From Methanocalculus natronophilus (lineage in GTDB: Archaea > Halobacteriota > Methanomicrobia > Methanomicrobiales > Methanocorpusculaceae): a stretch of 64,000 bases of DNA. A program made the position numbers and the translations under genes. Shown here one piece after another: positions 1,858 through 52,901 of this stretch. The DNA is taken from positions 124,001 through 188,000 of the forward strand of contig NZ_JBCEXH010000002.1 in the NCBI RefSeq assembly GCF_038751955.1. Reading direction: 5' to 3'. Each line of letters starts with the position of its first letter. Position 1 is the first letter of the stretch. Below the pieces are notes generated by a model. That model worked only from the letters and a program-made list of their open reading frames with translations, did no database searches and was not told the DNA's origin.

Positions 1858-2538
1858 ATGAACATGCAGCCGGTTGCACGCCTGATACGCGAGACGCCTG
1901 TGATCGACAGGCCGCGGGAGCGGATAAAAGCACGTGGTGCAGAAACGCTCTCCAATAACGAGCTCATCGCCGCGATCATCGGCAGAGGTGTGCGTGGCCG
2001 GGATGTCACGGCCCTTTCGCGGGACATCTGCAGCAGCCTTGATGAAAAAGGGCTTGCCATCTCGTGCAGTGATCTTGTCAGCATACCCGGTGTCGGTGAA
2101 GCAAAAGCCTGCCAGCTCCTGGCGGCATTCGAACTTGCCCGCCGCTACCAGGCTACATCACACCGGCCGAAGATCACCTCCCCTGAAGATACGCTCCCCT
2201 TTGCCGAGGAGATCAGGTGTGAGCAGCAGGAGCATGTCATCTGCCTCAGCTTAAACGGTGCCCACGAGCTTATCCGCAAAAGAGAAGTGACAAAAGGTAT
2301 TCTGAACCAGAGCCAGATCCACCCCCGCGAAGTCTTTGCAGATCCGATCACCGATCGGGCAGCGTCAATCATTTTGATCCATAACCACCCGTCAGGAAAC
2401 GTGACACCGAGTGCGGACGACATCGCGGTGACGAAGAAGCTCGCGGAGGCTGGCGAGATCCTCGGGATCCGCTTAATCGATCATATCATCGTCTCGGAAC
2501 GCGGCTTCTGTTCACTTCACGGAGAGGGATACTTCTGA
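1858..2538 (+). CDS. radC: RadC family JAMM-domain protein
   Basis: 226 residues, full length for RadC. The N-terminal half holds a UPF0758 helix-hairpin-helix segment (SIPGVGEAKACQLLAA near residue 75). The C-terminal half is the JAB/MPN-type metalloprotease fold with the Zn-binding signature HNHPSG..TPS.DD near residues 178-192. RadC proteins are named for DNA repair, but that role is disputed in bacteria, so the function should be treated as unknown. The 3' end overlaps the convergent flavoprotein gene by 27 bp. Confidence 0.93.
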   Translation: MNMQPVARLIRETPVIDRPRERIKARGAETLSNNELIAAIIGRGVRGRDVTALSRDICSSLDEKGLAISCSDLVSIPGVGEAKACQLLAAFELARRYQATSHRPKITSPEDTLPFAEEIRCEQQEHVICLSLNGAHELIRKREVTKGILNQSQIHPREVFADPITDRAASIILIHNHPSGNVTPSADDIAVTKKLAEAGEILGIRLIDHIIVSERGFCSLHGEGYF

Positions 2539-3135
2539 TTTTGCCACTTTGACCGCTTCCCCAAGCGATCGTCCCTTCAGATAGGCCTCTTCCAGGAGTT
2601 CCGGCCTGGTTTTGATATCCAGAATAGTGTCCATATCATCTCTCAACAGGGAGTCATGGAGCGGACAGTCGATGATCTCACCAAACGCGTGCATCGTCTG
2701 GAGGAGTCCGGCAAAGAGATTCTTCACATTCATCCCGGCAATCGAGAGGAGGAGCATCCGCCGGATCTTTCTCTGATCAGGCGTGATGAGAGGATCGTTT
2801 CGCTCATATTTTGCCATATAAAAGACCTGGAACCGATCAAGAAATGATTTGAGGGCGCCTGGAACGCCCATCGTCATGACAGGGGTTGCAACAATCAGGC
2901 CGTCTGCGAGACGCACCATATCATAATACTCCTGCATCTCATCCTTTATTGCACAGGCGGGCTTTGTTTTGCATGCAAATATCTCCATGCAGGGTTTTAC
3001 CTGGAGCGACGGCACACGAACAAGATCAACAGTACATCCGGCATCTTCTGCCCCGCGTATTGCTTCGTCAAGCAAAATTTCAGTATTGCCTCCTCTTTTC
3101 GGGCTGCCAAGCAGTGCTACAAGACGACATTCCAT
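2512..3135 (-). CDS. NADPH-dependent FMN reductase / flavodoxin-fold protein
   Basis: 207 residues. The N-terminus LVALLGSPKRGGNTEILLDEA is the phosphate-binding loop of the FMN_red/iron-sulfur flavoprotein family, and TPVMTMGVPGALKSFLDRF is its second flavin-contact segment. Cysteines near residues 49-61 (CMEIFAC..KPAC) sit where iron-sulfur flavoproteins carry their cluster, but the spacing is C-x6-C-x5-C instead of the compact C-x2-C-x2-C. An Fe-S cluster is therefore doubtful. One of five related flavoproteins in the window. Physiological partner unknown. Confidence 0.85.
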   Translation of the reverse strand: MECRLVALLGSPKRGGNTEILLDEAIRGAEDAGCTVDLVRVPSLQVKPCMEIFACKTKPACAIKDEMQEYYDMVRLADGLIVATPVMTMGVPGALKSFLDRFQVFYMAKYERNDPLITPDQRKIRRMLLLSIAGMNVKNLFAGLLQTMHAFGEIIDCPLHDSLLRDDMDTILDIKTRPELLEEAYLKGRSLGEAVKVAKSEVSLSVK

Positions 3136-3694: not shown

Positions 3695-4048
3695 ATGGGC
3701 AGACAGGCTGATGACCTGAAGAGCCTCGAAGAGAAGATAGGCAAAGTCCCGGTCTTCTTCCGCGAACTGATGAAGACCGAGCCTGATATGGCTGAGATGG
3801 TCTTGAAGTTCGATCAGCATATCTGGGCAGACGGCGCACTTGACCGGAAGACAAAGAAGGTGCTGGCAATTGCAATAGCAGCCGCTCTCCGCGACGAGCA
3901 TGCGGTTCGTGCCCAGATGGCAGGCGCAAAGAAACTCGGCGTGACCAGAGAGCAGATCGAGGAGGGGCTCCGGGTCACCTTCATGCTCTCCGGTATGCCC
4001 GCATATGTCCATGGCAAGAGTGCCATGGAAGAAATTATGAAGGAGTGA
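3695..4048 (+). CDS. Carboxymuconolactone decarboxylase (AhpD-like) family protein
   Basis: 117 residues when started at ATG 3695, which has GGAGTGA from the preceding stop region as ribosome binding site; a TTG six bases upstream is too close to that site. The helical core (LDRKTKKVLAIAIAAALRDEHAVRAQMAGAKKLGVTREQIEEGLR) fits the CMD/AhpD fold. The redox CxxC of AhpD is absent, so it is not an obvious disulfide reductant; only the acidic/His part of the proton relay (DEHA) is recognisable. Overlaps the peroxiredoxin start in TGATG, implying co-translation. Confidence 0.85.
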   Translation: MGRQADDLKSLEEKIGKVPVFFRELMKTEPDMAEMVLKFDQHIWADGALDRKTKKVLAIAIAAALRDEHAVRAQMAGAKKLGVTREQIEEGLRVTFMLSGMPAYVHGKSAMEEIMKE

Positions 4049-4734
4049 TGGCTTGTATGTGCGAAGACATGGATATGTTCTGTGAATGTGATTGTGAATG
4101 TGAGCAGGTGATGCCGAAGATCGGCGAGGAGGCACCTGATTTTGAGGCGGTAACAACCCACGGACCGATGAAACTCTCGGATTTTAAGGATAAGAAGTGG
4201 GTCGTCCTCTTCTCGCACCCCGCTGACTTCACACCGGTCTGCACGACCGAATTCATGGCGCTTTCTGCGGCAGAACCCGAGTTTCAGGAACTCAATGCCC
4301 AGCTTGTCGGTCTCTCCATCGACAGCATCCACTCTCATCTCGCATGGGTCCGGAATGTCAAAGAGAAGATGGGCGTTGAGATTCCATTCCCGATCATCGC
4401 AGACCTGGACATGAAGGTCGCATCCTTATTCGGGATGGTCCATCCTGGCCAGAGTACAACTGCCGCTGTTCGTGCCGTCTTCTATATTGACCCGAAGATG
4501 AAGATCCGGGGGATCCTGTATTACCCGCTCTCAAACGGCCGCTACATCCCGGAACTGATCCGTCTCCTAAAAGCATTCCAGACGAGCGATACCCACGGTG
4601 TCGCAACTCCTGCCAACTGGCAGCCCGGAGACAAGGTTGTTGTACCTGCTCCAAAGACTGTCGGGGAGATGAAGATCCGTGATGGCGAAGAGTATGAATG
4701 CAAGGACTGGTATCTCTGCCTCAAGCAGATCTAA
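4048..4734 (+). CDS. 1-Cys (Prx6-type) peroxiredoxin with Cys-rich N-terminal extension
   Basis: 228 residues. The Prx6-type core begins at MPKIGEEAPDF (residue 22). The peroxidatic cysteine is Cys65 in PADFTPVCTTEF, and the long C-terminal domain typical of archaeal Prx6 follows. If translation starts at ATG 4048, overlapping the AhpD-like stop and preceded by AAGGAG, the protein gains a 21-residue leader with six cysteines (3, 5, 12, 14, 16, 18). Starting at the internal ATG 4111 would remove it; that site also has AGGTG nearby. Reduces peroxides; last gene before a T-run. Confidence 0.92.
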   Translation: MACMCEDMDMFCECDCECEQVMPKIGEEAPDFEAVTTHGPMKLSDFKDKKWVVLFSHPADFTPVCTTEFMALSAAEPEFQELNAQLVGLSIDSIHSHLAWVRNVKEKMGVEIPFPIIADLDMKVASLFGMVHPGQSTTAAVRAVFYIDPKMKIRGILYYPLSNGRYIPELIRLLKAFQTSDTHGVATPANWQPGDKVVVPAPKTVGEMKIRDGEEYECKDWYLCLKQI

Positions 4735-46456: not shown

Positions 46457-47683
46457 TCACACTCTCATCGTCATGGCATCTTCCAGTGAGTCTGCCACCA
46501 CCATACCGCCCAGAACGAGCCGGAAGAGCAGGCTGGTTGCCGCTCCCCCGGTATGGTCCTCAAATGATTCCACGCACCCGACAAGAACCGTCTTTTTGGC
46601 ATAGGGTTCCAGAAGTCGTATATTCTCAAGATTTCCACTCCCAACGGGCATTGGAACAAGCAGAATCATATCCGCCTCCTCAAGGAAAGAGATGAGTGCT
46701 TCTGCGGCATCACCAGATATTGATGCAAACGGTGCTTCGGAGATGATCGGAATACCAAGATCACGTGCTGTTGTATAATCTGAGTCAAGGACATTCAGGA
46801 CGCCGGTGGAGAGGAGGCAGCCTGCCTGGTGGAGTTCTCTCTGGATGAACGAACCTGTGCCGCCGCCGCAGACCAGATGCACCCGTCGTCCCCCGGTTTC
46901 AAGCTGCGCCTTCTCATACATCGGCAGGATATACGGCCTGTTCGTGGACGGGTGTGTTGCCACAATGACACTGATTCCATAGACCGAGTGGATCAGGTTC
47001 TCTGTCACCACGTCTGCCGGTCTTCCGATACCGGCAATCTGCCTCTCCTTTAAGAGAATTATCCGGTCACAGTAGCAGGATGCAAGATTGATGTCGTGGA
47101 AGACGCTGATCGTCGCTGTCTTCTCCATCTCCTTTCTGATGATTGTTAAGATCTCGATCTGGTGGCTGATATCAAGGTGCGAGGTTGCCTCATCAAGAAG
47201 CAGGATATCCGGCTCCTGTGCGAGAGCCCGTGCGATCAGCACCCGCTGCCGCTCGCCGCCGCTGATCTGGTTTACGGGCATATCTGCAAGGTGGGAGACA
47301 TTGGCAAGCCGCATCACCCGCTCACAGATTGCGTGATCCTCCCTGCTTTCTGATGCGAACCTGCCGATATAGGGGTGGCGGCCCATCATCACGATCTCAG
47401 CAACGGTATAGTCAAAATTGATAGCCGTCTCCTGGGGAACGACTGCCACCCGCTGCGCCAGCATCCGGAAGGAGAGGGAGTCCAGCTGATCACCATTGTA
47501 GTAGACGTCTCCTCCTGCCGGGGCAACAATCCTGCTCATGGCTTTCAGGAGGGTGGTCTTTCCGGAGCCATTCGGGCCGCAGATACCGATCATCTCACCA
47601 GACTGCACTGAGAAGGCAATCTCCTCCAGGATCTGGTGCGCTCCGTACCGGACATCGAGATCGACGACATCGACAGCCTTCAT
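46457..47683 (-). CDS. btuD: ABC importer ATP-binding protein with extra C-terminal domain
   Basis: 408 residues. Residues 1-250 are a BtuD/FecE-type ATPase: Walker A GPNGSGKTTLLKA, signature ISGGERQRVLIARAL, Walker B ILLLDEATSHLD. A further 150 residues follow (HLVCGGGTGSFIQRELHQAG; VLNVLDSDYTTARDLGIPIIS; GDAAEALISFLEEADMILLVPMPVG) with a Gly-rich nucleotide-binding look. Such an extension is not in bacterial BtuD. Overlaps btuC by ATGA. Confidence 0.92.
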   Translation of the reverse strand: MKAVDVVDLDVRYGAHQILEEIAFSVQSGEMIGICGPNGSGKTTLLKAMSRIVAPAGGDVYYNGDQLDSLSFRMLAQRVAVVPQETAINFDYTVAEIVMMGRHPYIGRFASESREDHAICERVMRLANVSHLADMPVNQISGGERQRVLIARALAQEPDILLLDEATSHLDISHQIEILTIIRKEMEKTATISVFHDINLASCYCDRIILLKERQIAGIGRPADVVTENLIHSVYGISVIVATHPSTNRPYILPMYEKAQLETGGRRVHLVCGGGTGSFIQRELHQAGCLLSTGVLNVLDSDYTTARDLGIPIISEAPFASISGDAAEALISFLEEADMILLVPMPVGSGNLENIRLLEPYAKKTVLVGCVESFEDHTGGAATSLLFRLVLGGMVVADSLEDAMTMRV

Positions 47684-48630
47684 ACCGCACTCCTCCTTCG
47701 CAGGAGATACATGAAGAATGGAGCGCCAAGGAATGCCGTGATGATCCCAACCGGCATCTCGTTTCCAAATGTCCGGGTGAAGGTATCTGCCCAGAGGAGG
47801 ATCAGTGCTCCTGCAAGGATTGCAGCAGGGAAGAGCACCCGGTGATCAGGGCCGACGATAGTGCGCATCAGGTGGGGGGTGATCAGGCCGATGAACCCGA
47901 TTGCGCCCGCGATGGAGACAGCGATCCCGGCAAGGACTGCACTTGCAAAGAGAAGGAGAATCTTCAGCTGCTCAACATTTACCCCAAGGTGGACTGCGTC
48001 CTCATCACCAAGCGAGATGATGTTGATGTCGCGTGCAAAGAGATAGATCAATAGACAGCCTGCCGGGATAAGAAGCGCAACCCATACCTGGTCCCATGAG
48101 ACCGTCCAGAACCCACCCATCAGCCAGAAGACGATCTGGTGCAGGCTCTTTCCGGCAGTATACATGAGAAACGAAAGCATTGCCGAGAGGAACATCGAGA
48201 GTGCAACACCTGTCAGGAGCAGGGTCTCAACCGGGATCTTCCCGCCCCTGCGGGCAATGGTATAGACCAGGAAGGTTGCGCCGACAGCCCCGGTAAAAGC
48301 AAGGACCGGAAGGCCGACTCCTGCGAGGAATACAATAGAGATGACTGCACCAAGCGATCCCCCGGCAGATGTTCCGATGATATAGGGATCTGCCATCGGA
48401 TTCTTAAAGAGCGCCTGCATCGCGGTGCCTGCCGTTGCAAGCGCAGCACCCACCAGCACCGCCGCAATCACCCGCGGAAGCCGGATATCGAAGATGATCT
48501 GGTGTGCTGTTGCATCCTGGAAGATAGATGCGAGGTGAACGCTCGTTGGCCCGGTTGCAATAGCGATGAGCATGCTTACAGCGAGGGAGGCAAGGAGGAG
48601 GAGAAGGATAGCTGGTCCCCGGTAGCGCAT
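47680..48630 (-). CDS. btuC: FecCD/BtuC-type ABC importer permease
   Basis: 316 residues, about ten membrane helices. Family motifs are RLPRVIAAVLVGAALATAGTAMQALFKNPMADPYIIGTS near the N-terminus and IGFIGLITPHLMRTIVG near residue 235, which contacts the ATPase. Slightly short compared with 330-350 usual residues, mostly at the N-terminus. First gene of btuC-btuD-btuF, with a TATA box 25-36 nt upstream. Confidence 0.93.
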   Translation of the reverse strand: MRYRGPAILLLLLASLAVSMLIAIATGPTSVHLASIFQDATAHQIIFDIRLPRVIAAVLVGAALATAGTAMQALFKNPMADPYIIGTSAGGSLGAVISIVFLAGVGLPVLAFTGAVGATFLVYTIARRGGKIPVETLLLTGVALSMFLSAMLSFLMYTAGKSLHQIVFWLMGGFWTVSWDQVWVALLIPAGCLLIYLFARDINIISLGDEDAVHLGVNVEQLKILLLFASAVLAGIAVSIAGAIGFIGLITPHLMRTIVGPDHRVLFPAAILAGALILLWADTFTRTFGNEMPVGIITAFLGAPFFMYLLRRRSAV

Positions 48631-49141: not shown

Positions 49142-51106
49142 TCACACAATCCTCCTCGCATCAGAGATCACATCCACGATCACCGGAACATTCATTGATA
49201 GCGCCTTTTGAACCGCTCCTGCCAGTTCATCCGGCTGCTCCACCCTGATCCCGGCACCGCCGCAGGCCCCGGCATAGGCAGCAAAGTCGGGGTTATGGAG
49301 GTCTGTTCCGAAATTTGGGTAGTTCTCCATCAGCTGCTCGACCTGTATCATCCCAAGCTGCCGGTTGTTCATGATGATGACAACCATCGGGAGATCGTAC
49401 TTCACCGCGGTGACAAAATCTGCCATCGCCTGCGAGAAGCCGCCGTCGCCGGTGATGCAGACGACCTGTTTCTCCGGGTAGGCAAGTTTTGCCGCAAGTG
49501 CCGCCGGAAACCCAAAGCCCATCGTCCCAAGATACCCCGACATCGTAAACCGCTGCTGGTTCATCCTGAAGTTCCGCCCAAACCACCACTGGTTCTCGCC
49601 GACATCCAGGCAGATGACTGCATCTGCTGGAAGCGTCTCCGAGAGGACCTTCATGAGATAGGGAGGACGGATTGGGACTGCTGTCGAGTCGGCCTCGTTC
49701 TCCAGTTGCTCAGACCAGGCCTTCTTCATACCGGCAAGCTCGTCTGCAAGGCCGGGGCGGGTCTTCTTTGAAACCATCTCTGCCAGGAGGGGAATCGTCT
49801 CCGAACAGGTGCCAAAGAGCGGGATCGTCTGTCTCCCGATACCGAGACGGAGGGGGTTTGTATCTACCTGGATGATCCGGCTGTCTTGCGGGACATTGGT
49901 GAATTTCGAGAACCCGACACCAAAGCAGATGATCAGATCAGATCGTTCTGCCAGCAGGCGGGCCTGTGGCGAGCCGACAGATCCAAGCACGCTGATCACC
50001 CGTGGGTGATCTTCAGGGAGGATGCCCTTTGCCCGGTACGTCGTCAGGATCGGGGCATCGATTGCCTCTGCAAACCGGAGTACAGCAGCTCCATCGTCAT
50101 ATGCCCCAAACCCTGCAAGGACAACCGGATTCTCTGCTGCCTCAATCGCGTCAGCTGCCTCTTTGAGTGTTGTCGCATCCGGTATGACGGCTGGTTCGGG
50201 GATGATCGCCTCACGCCTTGAGATAGAGGGATCAAGGGGTTGTTTCTGGATATCATTTGGAATTGAGAGCTGGGCAACACCATGGCGGAGTGTTGCATAC
50301 CGAATCGCCCGTGAGAGGAGGAGGAGTGTCATCTTCCGGTCAGATATGGTGTTGTTATACACGGTTACCGGCCTGAAGAAGGCGTCCTGATCGATCTCCT
50401 GCATCCCGTACTCGCCGGTATACTGCATCTCGACCTGCCCGTTTAGGGAGAGGACAGATGCCCCGTCCTCTTTTGCATCATAGAGACCGGTTGCAAGGTT
50501 TGTAGCACCGGGCCCTGCAATGGTGAGGCAGGCAGCGATTCTGCCGGTGAGCTTGTTGTAGGCAGATGCTGCCATTGCTGCTGCCTCCTCGTGCCGGACA
50601 ACAATATAGCGGACCTTCCCGTTCTTCCGGATCGCATCCACAAGCCCAAGTGACGAGGTGCCGGGGAGGCCGAAGACGAGATCGATTCCGGCAGATACCA
50701 TCTCCCCGATGATCACATCAGACACGGTCTTTTCGGACTGCTCATGCGTGATTGCATCCTTCCTGACCATCACAAAGACGGTGCGGGCAGCACCGCAGAC
50801 GGGACACCGCCAGTCTTCTGCAAGTTCTGCAAATCTCGTCCCCGGAGGCGTATTCGTGGCAGGCTCCCCGGTATCTTCCGAGTAGCGGTAGTTACAGACG
50901 GTGCATCTCCAGATCATTGAGAGGGCAGGTCCGGATGGTGCATCTGCAGAGATCTGAGAGAATGCTGTTTTACCTGCCGCACAGACCGGACACCGCCAGT
51001 CTTCGGGGAGTTCATCAAAACGAGTTTTCGGCTCTGTCCTGGTCGAAGGCTCACCAGCCTCTTCATCATAGACATAGCCGCAGACAGAGCATTTCCAGTG
51101 TGACAT
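49142..51106 (-). CDS. Double rubredoxin fused to a thiamine-diphosphate enzyme (pyruvate oxidase / acetolactate synthase-like)
   Basis: 654 residues from ATG 51106 (GGTGA upstream; ATG 51112 also possible). Rubredoxin 1 has C6/C9 and C39/C42; rubredoxin 2 has C68/C71 and C101/C104, each with the usual GY..D..G.P and F.EL.EDWRCPVC. Residues 120-654 are a three-domain ThDP enzyme: catalytic Glu in VRHEEAAAMAA, central domain VLAGFGAYDDGA, and ThDP/Mg motif GDGGFSQAMADF...NNRQLG. Acetolactate synthase and pyruvate oxidase are the nearest families. The fused rubredoxins suggest electrons from 2-oxoacid oxidation leave through them. Monocistronic. Confidence 0.9.
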   Translation of the reverse strand: MSHWKCSVCGYVYDEEAGEPSTRTEPKTRFDELPEDWRCPVCAAGKTAFSQISADAPSGPALSMIWRCTVCNYRYSEDTGEPATNTPPGTRFAELAEDWRCPVCGAARTVFVMVRKDAITHEQSEKTVSDVIIGEMVSAGIDLVFGLPGTSSLGLVDAIRKNGKVRYIVVRHEEAAAMAASAYNKLTGRIAACLTIAGPGATNLATGLYDAKEDGASVLSLNGQVEMQYTGEYGMQEIDQDAFFRPVTVYNNTISDRKMTLLLLSRAIRYATLRHGVAQLSIPNDIQKQPLDPSISRREAIIPEPAVIPDATTLKEAADAIEAAENPVVLAGFGAYDDGAAVLRFAEAIDAPILTTYRAKGILPEDHPRVISVLGSVGSPQARLLAERSDLIICFGVGFSKFTNVPQDSRIIQVDTNPLRLGIGRQTIPLFGTCSETIPLLAEMVSKKTRPGLADELAGMKKAWSEQLENEADSTAVPIRPPYLMKVLSETLPADAVICLDVGENQWWFGRNFRMNQQRFTMSGYLGTMGFGFPAALAAKLAYPEKQVVCITGDGGFSQAMADFVTAVKYDLPMVVIIMNNRQLGMIQVEQLMENYPNFGTDLHNPDFAAYAGACGGAGIRVEQPDELAGAVQKALSMNVPVIVDVISDARRIV

Positions 51107-51240
51107 CGACATTTCACCAGTTCCAATGTGGAACAGGGAACAGCAAAGTGATAAATATTCCTCTTGGTGCAATGGGAGATACAGGATGGTGGATCAGAAG
51201 ACGGGTTGGAGGAAGACACCGAATCCCGTTTGCCGGGCAT

Positions 51241-51274: not shown

Positions 51275-51529
51275 ATGTTCGGATCGGTCTTTGGCATCCT
51301 CATCGCTCTTGCGATTGCAGTTGCCATCTACTATCTCCTGAAGAAAGGAGTGTACCTGCTCTACAATGCGATCATCGGTATAGTCATTCTCTTCATCCTG
51401 AATGCCACCGGTTTATTTGGGGATCCGGGTATCCCAATCAACCTGGTAACGATCCTGATCAGTGCAATCGGCGGGATTCTTGGAGTAGTCATCATCATCC
51501 TGCTGCACTTCCTCGGCGTGCCGCTCTGA
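51275..51529 (+). CDS. BofA (pro-sigma-K processing inhibitor) family membrane protein
   Basis: 84 residues with three hydrophobic segments. LLKKGVYLLYNAIIGIVILFILN and IPINLVTILISAIGGILGVVIIILL match the PF07441 BofA family. In Bacillus BofA inhibits the M50 intramembrane protease SpoIVFB; the archaeal relatives have no known role. The window also encodes an M50 protease (30070-30753), so regulation of that enzyme is a thin possibility. Convergent with the thioredoxin-CcdA gene. Confidence 0.85.
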   Translation: MFGSVFGILIALAIAVAIYYLLKKGVYLLYNAIIGIVILFILNATGLFGDPGIPINLVTILISAIGGILGVVIIILLHFLGVPL

Positions 51530-51553: not shown

Positions 51554-52774
51554 CTACACAATGCCAGTAAGCATCATCAGGCCGATTGCCACCAGAAATA
51601 CACCCATACAGAACCTGATCAAGCGATTATATCTTCCTCGCCACTCATCCAGGTGTCCTGGTGCCAGACCCCGGTATACAATGAGAAGGACAAGCAGAAG
51701 CGGCAGTACAAAGATGAGGTTATACAGGATGAGATAGGGCAGGCCTTCCATAAAGGTCATCCGATCAGCAAGAAGAGCGAGTATGGCAAGGTATATCCCG
51801 CCGGTGCAGGGCAGTTCAACGATACTGACAAACGCACCAAGGAGAAGGGCAGACGGGATCGTTGCCCGCCGGATATAGTTCCCGATACGCTCACTGAACC
51901 GATCCGGGATAGAGAAGGAGAAGGCATGCTTCTTCCTGACCACATCACCAATCTGGAATAGACCTGCAAGTATCACGATGACTGCTGCAAGCGAGAAGAA
52001 AGGACTGGTTATCTCAAGGGAGTGTACAAAACCAAGCAGGGCAAGTCCTGCCAGAAGGTAAACGACAAACACCGTCCCGATATAGACCAGGCCAACCTGG
52101 AGCATCCGTCTCCTGTCATCTAGTGTCGAGAGGTACGCAAGAAGGACGAAGAGGACTGCAAACGCACAGGGGTTGATGCTGTCGACTGCTGCGCCGATGA
52201 GAACTGCTGCCAGTGTCACCTGCCTGCCGGGGGAAGGATCAGGTCCCGGCGGTATCTTCTCCGGGGCAGGAGTTGGCAGTTTGCCATCCCTGTCACTACC
52301 CTCAGCATCATCAAAGGTTCTGAGAGCCCAAAGCAGCAACTCCACTCTATCCATATCTCCATCCTGCAACGCTTCGGTCTCAGCTGCTTTGAGAAGTATC
52401 GGGATACGGGAGCTTATCTGCTCTTCACCAACCATCACCGCATCTCCGATCAGAAAGAGAGGGACAAGCGGCGTCTCTATATGGTAGTTATCAGCAATTG
52501 AAAAGAAATGCTCCCGGTTCTCCCTGCTATGGGTGATCTCAAGGTATTCAGTTTCAATATGGGGGTAGACCCGTGCAAGCTCTTCGACAAGCGGCCTCAC
52601 ACGATTGCAGTTTGCACAGGTCAGGCTATAAAAATAGTATGCATCTACCCTCTCTTCGCCAATTTCCGGATTAAGGTCAGGCTCTTCTCCATGATAGACA
52701 AAGGCAGATGCAACAGCTGTTCCAGTGAAGAGAAGAATGAAGATAGTACACAGAATCGAGAAGACCAGCCTCAT
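51554..52774 (-). CDS. Thioredoxin-like domain fused to CcdA/DsbD-type membrane domain
   Basis: 406 residues from ATG 52774 (AAGGGGG upstream). After a signal segment, residues 40-150 form a thioredoxin fold with CANC in YFYSLTCANCNRVRPLVEEL. After an acidic/Pro linker, residues 190-400 hold about six helices with INPCAFAVLFVLLAYL and ELPCTGGIYLAILAL, the two membrane cysteines of CcdA/DsbD. It passes reducing power from the cytoplasm to extracytoplasmic thiols, perhaps for Cys-containing binding proteins encoded next to it. Confidence 0.9.
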   Translation of the reverse strand: MRLVFSILCTIFILLFTGTAVASAFVYHGEEPDLNPEIGEERVDAYYFYSLTCANCNRVRPLVEELARVYPHIETEYLEITHSRENREHFFSIADNYHIETPLVPLFLIGDAVMVGEEQISSRIPILLKAAETEALQDGDMDRVELLLWALRTFDDAEGSDRDGKLPTPAPEKIPPGPDPSPGRQVTLAAVLIGAAVDSINPCAFAVLFVLLAYLSTLDDRRRMLQVGLVYIGTVFVVYLLAGLALLGFVHSLEITSPFFSLAAVIVILAGLFQIGDVVRKKHAFSFSIPDRFSERIGNYIRRATIPSALLLGAFVSIVELPCTGGIYLAILALLADRMTFMEGLPYLILYNLIFVLPLLLVLLIVYRGLAPGHLDEWRGRYNRLIRFCMGVFLVAIGLMMLTGIV

Positions 52775-52901
52775 AGCAATGAAAAAATCCCCCTTCAACG
52801 ATGGCAGAGGAGAGGTTGCCAGAATATGATGGGGAAGGAATGATACCTATCTCCCTTCACCCAACCCCTCTCGTCCGGTTCCAATGCTGTTTTCTTTTTT
52901 C

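Follow-up and report, generated by a model that had tools for sequence, protein, structure and literature searches.

The oxidase gene and its surroundings

The window, by which we mean the whole 64,000-nucleotide stretch of DNA analysed here, carries on its minus strand a gene of 654 codons plus stop (49142..51106; start ATG at 51106, end at 49142) encoding two rubredoxin (Rd) domains followed by a thiamine diphosphate (ThDP) oxidase. The plus strand of the same interval contains many stops. The gene is solitary and apparently monocistronic. Vitamin B12/iron-type ABC transporter genes lie on one side, the nearest at 48630 after a downstream gap of ~510 nt, and a small membrane-protein gene (51275-51529, plus strand) lies divergently upstream. 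A Shine-Dalgarno-like GGTG (51115..51118, minus strand) is located 8 nt 5' of the ATG, and a possible archaeal TATA box, AATATTTATC (51150..51159, minus strand), ~44 nt 5' of it; both were picked by eye and are unscored. An alternative in-frame ATG at 51112, two codons 5' of ATG 51106, has a poorer spacing to the GGTG. The source genome is archaeal (2.0 Mb), and the closest named relatives of the oxidase protein are from Methanocalculus. Elsewhere in the window, a gene on the minus strand (51554-52798) fuses a thioredoxin-like domain to a CcdA/DsbD-like membrane protein, and an ABC-transporter ATPase (46457-47683, minus strand) has an additional C-terminal domain of ~150 residues of a different kind.

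Pfam recognized Rubredoxin twice (E 5e-37) together with TPP_enzyme_N, _M and _C (E 1e-27 to 1e-43), and every hit exceeded the cut-off. The single frame and these domains confirm the proposal of a first-pass annotation, which had given no strand, that two rubredoxins and a ThDP enzyme are joined in one protein. Rd domain 1 spans residues 2-49 (50960..51103, minus strand) and Rd domain 2 residues 64-111 (50774..50917, minus strand). Each matches PF00301 above cut-off and contains two CxxC knuckles within 45-50 residues, with the predicted iron-ligating cysteines 6/9/39/42 and 68/71/101/104 located as claimed. The ThDP PYR domain follows at residues 127-241 (50384..50728, minus strand; PF02776, 9e-35) and includes the catalytic Glu173 (50588..50590, minus strand), which aligns with Glu50 of PoxB and is kept in 50/50 relatives. 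The central domain (residues 314-438; 49793..50167, minus strand; PF00205, 3e-27) corresponds to the FAD-binding fold of pyruvate oxidases (POX). Its signature of GxG, TT..xKG, GxxF and QxD is conserved in the alignment, and judged by this conservation an FAD site is probably present. The ThDP PP domain (residues 501-646; 49169..49606, minus strand; PF02775, 6e-43) carries the GDGG...NN motif, so that both catalytic motifs named in the first-pass annotation were found. Across the 50 aligned family members Glu173, Asp554 and Gly555 are invariant. Position 586, the equivalent of PoxB Phe465, is Met in the window protein and most members, Asn in one group and Lys in the group with a Rieske domain (see below). 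PoxB Phe465 helps electron transfer. The variation at this position suggests that the substrate may differ between lineages.

An AlphaFold model (pLDDT 88.5, pTM 0.79) was computed for the monomer without cofactors, so that its Rd-to-FAD geometry is unreliable. The nearest folds were Lactobacillus plantarum POX, truncated PoxB (3eya, TM 0.90) and the tail-truncated pyruvate:quinone oxidoreductase (PQO) of Corynebacterium glutamicum.

We looked for a stop or frameshift between the Rd and ThDP parts and found none. The same domain order was searched for in other genomes and recurs there; Methanocalculus taiwanensis (86%) and M. chunghsingensis (75%) are among those with the complete two-Rd fusion. 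Between Methanocalculus orthologues, dN/dS was 0.04-0.22 for the Rd domains and 0.11-0.14 for the ThDP part, and higher for the first linker. At these ratios both Rd domains, like the ThDP part, are under purifying selection, the iron domains being maintained. That the fusion is an assembly artefact, or that Rd and ThDP genes are merely joined by chance read-through, is hardly conceivable: it recurs in dozens of independent assemblies, and purifying selection acts on both Rd domains. Nothing was found in favour of an artefact, which we regard as refuted. At one locus (L015), the first Rd of a two-Rd fusion is in a different frame from the rest, reflecting a sequencing indel or a genuine split.

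Relationship to pyruvate oxidases

The best curated model for the window protein was pyruvate oxidase PRK08611 (E 5e-145), although the score of 484 bits did not reach the cut-off of 742. Among sequences in the PDB, PoxB and L. plantarum POX were nearest. In a tree of 58 proteins, the 50 family members formed one clade (99/96) beside the POX references, with acetolactate synthases (AHAS) outside. The family clade is sister to the POX references (99/96 and 100/95) and not nested within them; note that the PoxB branch is long, making its exact placement among these references unsure. Residue 590 (49337..49339, minus strand), the position of a Trp in AHAS, is Glu in 50/50 family members and in POX.

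The family differs from POX at the C-terminus. Past the aligned core, its members have 5-13 residues, compared with 38-47 in the POX references. In PoxB, residues 558-568 form the lipid-activation helix, and electrons pass to ubiquinone (PMC7245740). By sequence, the family thus represents tail-less POX relatives in which the membrane/lipid device is gone and iron carriers have been added, and the carriers may compensate for the lost tail. Of the first-pass description, a full ThDP enzyme of the acetolactate synthase/pyruvate oxidase type, the POX type therefore holds, but not the completeness, the C-terminal segment of POX being absent.

Quinones are not known from the hydrogenotrophic methanogens of the Methanomicrobiales. 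With PoxB and the C. glutamicum enzyme the window protein shares ~30% identity, the three-domain ThDP/FAD fold, the catalytic Glu and the POX-type Glu590, but it lacks their C-terminal lipid/membrane segment and has N-terminal Rd domains instead. The L. plantarum enzyme, which forms H2O2 and acetyl phosphate, is alike in fold and catalytic residues; in contrast, it uses O2 as acceptor, retains the tail and has Phe479 where the window protein has Met. The Bacillus-type pyruvate oxidases of the best-scoring model likewise possess the tail and have no iron domain; to plasmid-borne enzymes of this kind from Bacillaceae, the window protein is ~39% identical. Pyruvate:ferredoxin oxidoreductase would resemble the window protein in oxidizing pyruvate to one-electron iron carriers, but is an unrelated multi-subunit, CoA-dependent iron-sulfur enzyme whose products are acetyl-CoA and low-potential ferredoxin.

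We consider it improbable that the protein is a non-oxidative ThDP enzyme, such as an acetolactate synthase or a decarboxylase of sulfopyruvate or another oxo-acid, with the rubredoxins as a structural, metal-binding or regulatory appendage. Acetolactate synthase (IlvB/IlvI) shares the ThDP fold, PF00205 and the FAD-type central domain, binds FAD without using it in redox chemistry, and can also have Met at position 586. However, the Glu in place of the AHAS Trp and the tree position with POX, in a clade separate from AHAS, argue otherwise, as does the presence of a normal leuA-ilvB-ilvN operon elsewhere in the same genome (ilvB-ilvN on contig C11). There is no ilvN adjoining the oxidase gene. 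These observations support the first-pass view that this is not a normal acetolactate synthase. Moreover, a structural role would not predict the replacement of Rd by a Rieske cluster in some relatives. A step in coenzyme M synthesis (sulfopyruvate) was rejected on taxonomic distribution: haloarchaea have the family, whereas the sister genus lacks it, as does half of the order, and both of these groups need coenzyme M.

Distribution and carrier forms

Within the Methanomicrobiales, the oxidase was found in 115/232 genomes (73/135 of those of good quality) and in 26/40 genera. The distinct loci read in the order comprise 14 with two fused Rd domains, 37 with one, 23 with a separate Rd open reading frame and 8 without Rd. 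One fused Rd is thus the commonest form; two are the minority, occurring in Methanocalculus and some others, and are not essential. In Methanoculleus and neighbouring taxa, the end of the Rd reading frame lies ~14-20 nt inside the enzyme gene, counted from its probable ATG, and a GAGGTG-like, Shine-Dalgarno-like motif precedes this ATG at the split-Rd loci (23 distinct). Judged by these signals, Rd and enzyme are two proteins made together at Methanoculleus-type loci. An in-frame TGA in some Methanoculleus matches was considered as a recoded codon and rejected, the match having run back into the upstream Rd gene, a separate overlapping reading frame.

Outside the order, some families have a short fused Rd and some have none. 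The haloarchaeal members carry an N-terminal Rieske domain (PF00355, 4.8e-19), and records from Halorarius, Salinirubellus, Halorubrum and Haloferax match the Rieske-ThDP protein over its whole length. The sole bacterial member found, in a thin bacterial sample, is a Rieske-ThDP protein on a Mycobacteroides plasmid. Sodium/cation:proton antiporter genes lie near the Rieske-ThDP genes on one haloarchaeal and one mycobacterial plasmid (L235, L237). On the tree, at least four changes between Rd, Rieske and no carrier are required. Members with neither a fused carrier nor a carrier gene just upstream were found in f4 g14, f10 and f7.

The linked glutamate-synthase-like gene

A search for a conserved neighbourhood across the Methanomicrobiales found none, the oxidase gene being mostly solitary. 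One type of neighbour does, however, recur. At one locus (L177), the oxidase adjoins a 494-residue protein with its own Rd and the FMN domain of glutamate synthase (GltS-like). In a haloarchaeon (L185), the neighbour combines a Rieske domain with the same FMN domain, and in a further family (L175, L176) oxidase and GltS-like neighbour are both bare. The GltS-like protein carries Rd in 20/20 methanogen-type loci examined and Rieske in the haloarchaeal loci. Its gene lies 39-371 nt from the oxidase gene in families f30, f6, f2 and f7, and at ~0.7 kb in one haloarchaeon. Within the Methanomicrobiales, Rd-GltS adjoins the oxidase in genomes of g34, g32 and g4 and in genome G076, on varying strands and sides, which argues that the linkage arose repeatedly and was not inherited as a single block. 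The carrier type matches in adjoining pairs but not in distant ones, g14 and G292 combining a bare oxidase with Rd-GltS. Genome G076 has two oxidase copies (contigs C60 and C125), of which one adjoins Rd-GltS and is unlike the genus's own; this additional copy is likely due to gene transfer or contamination.

The two genes also co-occur. Within the order, the oxidase is present in 38/48 GltS-bearing genomes versus 77/184 others (Fisher p 2.8e-6, ignoring ancestry and genome incompleteness). Outside the order, among ~310 genomes, the oxidase is present in 37 and the GltS-like gene in 48, with 30 carrying the two together (Fisher p 1e-22, with ancestry and incompleteness again ignored). Oxidase without Rd-GltS occurs in 77/115 oxidase-bearing genomes of the order, and Rd-GltS was absent from the window's genome and from its genus as sampled. 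In alignment, the GltS-like protein retains the three [3Fe-4S] cysteines of GOGAT. It resembles ferredoxin-dependent glutamate synthase in these cysteines and in the FMN domain, but consists of the FMN domain only, without a glutaminase domain and with N-terminal Rd or Rieske instead. Small Cys-rich DUF2769 proteins adjoin GltS or the oxidase at several loci (L177:678-896, L254-L258, L263, L267, L126, L127 and L129); in the window's own genome, a DUF2769 gene is on a different contig from the oxidase.

The exchange of Rd for Rieske and the redox-type neighbour strongly suggest that the N-terminal iron domains act as electron carriers. To this extent the electron export through Rd envisaged in the first-pass annotation is borne out, except that a pair of Rd domains is dispensable for it. 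Very improbably, the Rd might instead be a redox or oxygen sensor gating the ThDP enzyme, serving regulation and not electron transfer. This reading would accommodate lineages in which the carrier is dispensable, and PoxB is gated by its own tail (PMC7245740), which this family lacks. A shuttle fits better with the separate, diffusing Rd encoded by an overlapping gene, with the Rieske replacement and with the occurrence of the same domain on the neighbouring FMN enzyme.

Proposed reaction and electron acceptors

In our view the protein is probably a soluble enzyme of the POX type, dependent on both FAD and ThDP, which oxidizes a 2-oxoacid and gives up the electrons one by one. They would go to an iron carrier, either tethered or co-encoded, and not to O2 or a membrane quinone. 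The substrate is most likely pyruvate, giving the reaction pyruvate + H2O -> acetate + CO2 + 2 electrons. The 2-oxoacid would bind to ThDP and lose CO2, and the resulting hydroxyethyl-ThDP would reduce FAD. From FAD, electrons would move one at a time to the iron of rubredoxin (or Rieske), two Rd domains perhaps serving to hold two electrons at once or to reach farther. The reverse direction, which the first-pass annotation had also allowed, is thermodynamically implausible because the potential of the acetate+CO2/pyruvate couple is about -0.7 V, against about 0 V for rubredoxin (textbook values).

Reduced Rd would then donate to a downstream enzyme. In many relatives, a plausible acceptor is the GltS-like FMN/[3Fe-4S] protein encoded next to the oxidase, with its own Rd or Rieske tag. 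As a tentative proposal, methanogens, related archaea and haloarchaea would share a two-component system in which the tail-less POX oxidizes a 2-oxoacid and passes the electrons via an exchangeable N-terminal carrier, Rd in anaerobes and Rieske in haloarchaea, to a carrier-tagged GltS-like enzyme, by which a second metabolite would be reduced or aminated, often with DUF2769 alongside. Since the window's genome lacks Rd-GltS, the final acceptor there is not assignable to this partner.

We found no description of an Rd-POX enzyme or of an Rd-GltS protein in the open-licence literature, in keeping with the first-pass statement that no characterized enzyme of such architecture was known to it. Public records name the proteins only 'thiamine pyrophosphate-binding protein' and 'glutamate synthase-related protein'. 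The linked Rd/Rieske GltS-like protein points to a pathway that appears to be undescribed. If the two-component proposal is true, the enzyme would be the first 2-oxoacid:rubredoxin oxidoreductase. With electron transfer to the tethered carrier as proposed above, it would be a POX that has given up quinone or oxygen as acceptor in favour of an attached iron protein taking one electron at a time. The family would then offer a natural test of acceptor choice by flavoenzymes, in which evolution shows Rieske taking the place of rubredoxin. It would also provide a direct oxo-acid donor to rubredoxin in methanogens, in which rubredoxin reduction is poorly understood.

A role of the same chemistry in defence against O2 and reactive oxygen species, with Rd feeding a flavodiiron protein (FprA) or rubrerythrin and pyruvate as emergency reductant, seems rather unlikely to us. 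At 19 split-Rd loci of the Methanoculleus type (g10, g11), the opposite strand carries an FprA gene 1.2-2.5 kb upstream, which makes the flavodiiron protein a candidate acceptor in Methanoculleus and oxygen reduction a serious alternative as electron sink. These loci are among L027-L042 and L123-L127; FprA was not found at L035 and L122. The linkage is, however, limited to two related genera, and the linked gene in other lineages is GltS-like. The window's genome has a rubrerythrin and an Rd-FprA operon, a short rubredoxin gene standing directly 5' of an FprA-type flavodiiron gene (L004:1501-2818, contig C1), and a strongly downhill, irreversible reaction would fit scavenging. On the other hand, methanogen FprA is generally known to use F420H2, and no redox-defence gene directly adjoins the window oxidase gene. 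The suggestion of the first-pass annotation that electrons end up on rubrerythrin or an oxygen reductase is still a guess. An oxidative-stress group is located in the window ~45 kb away from the oxidase gene, consisting of a rubrerythrin (PF02915; 1267-1767, minus strand), a flavodoxin/FMN-reductase-like gene (2512-3135, minus strand) and a peroxiredoxin-like gene (4045-4734, plus strand).
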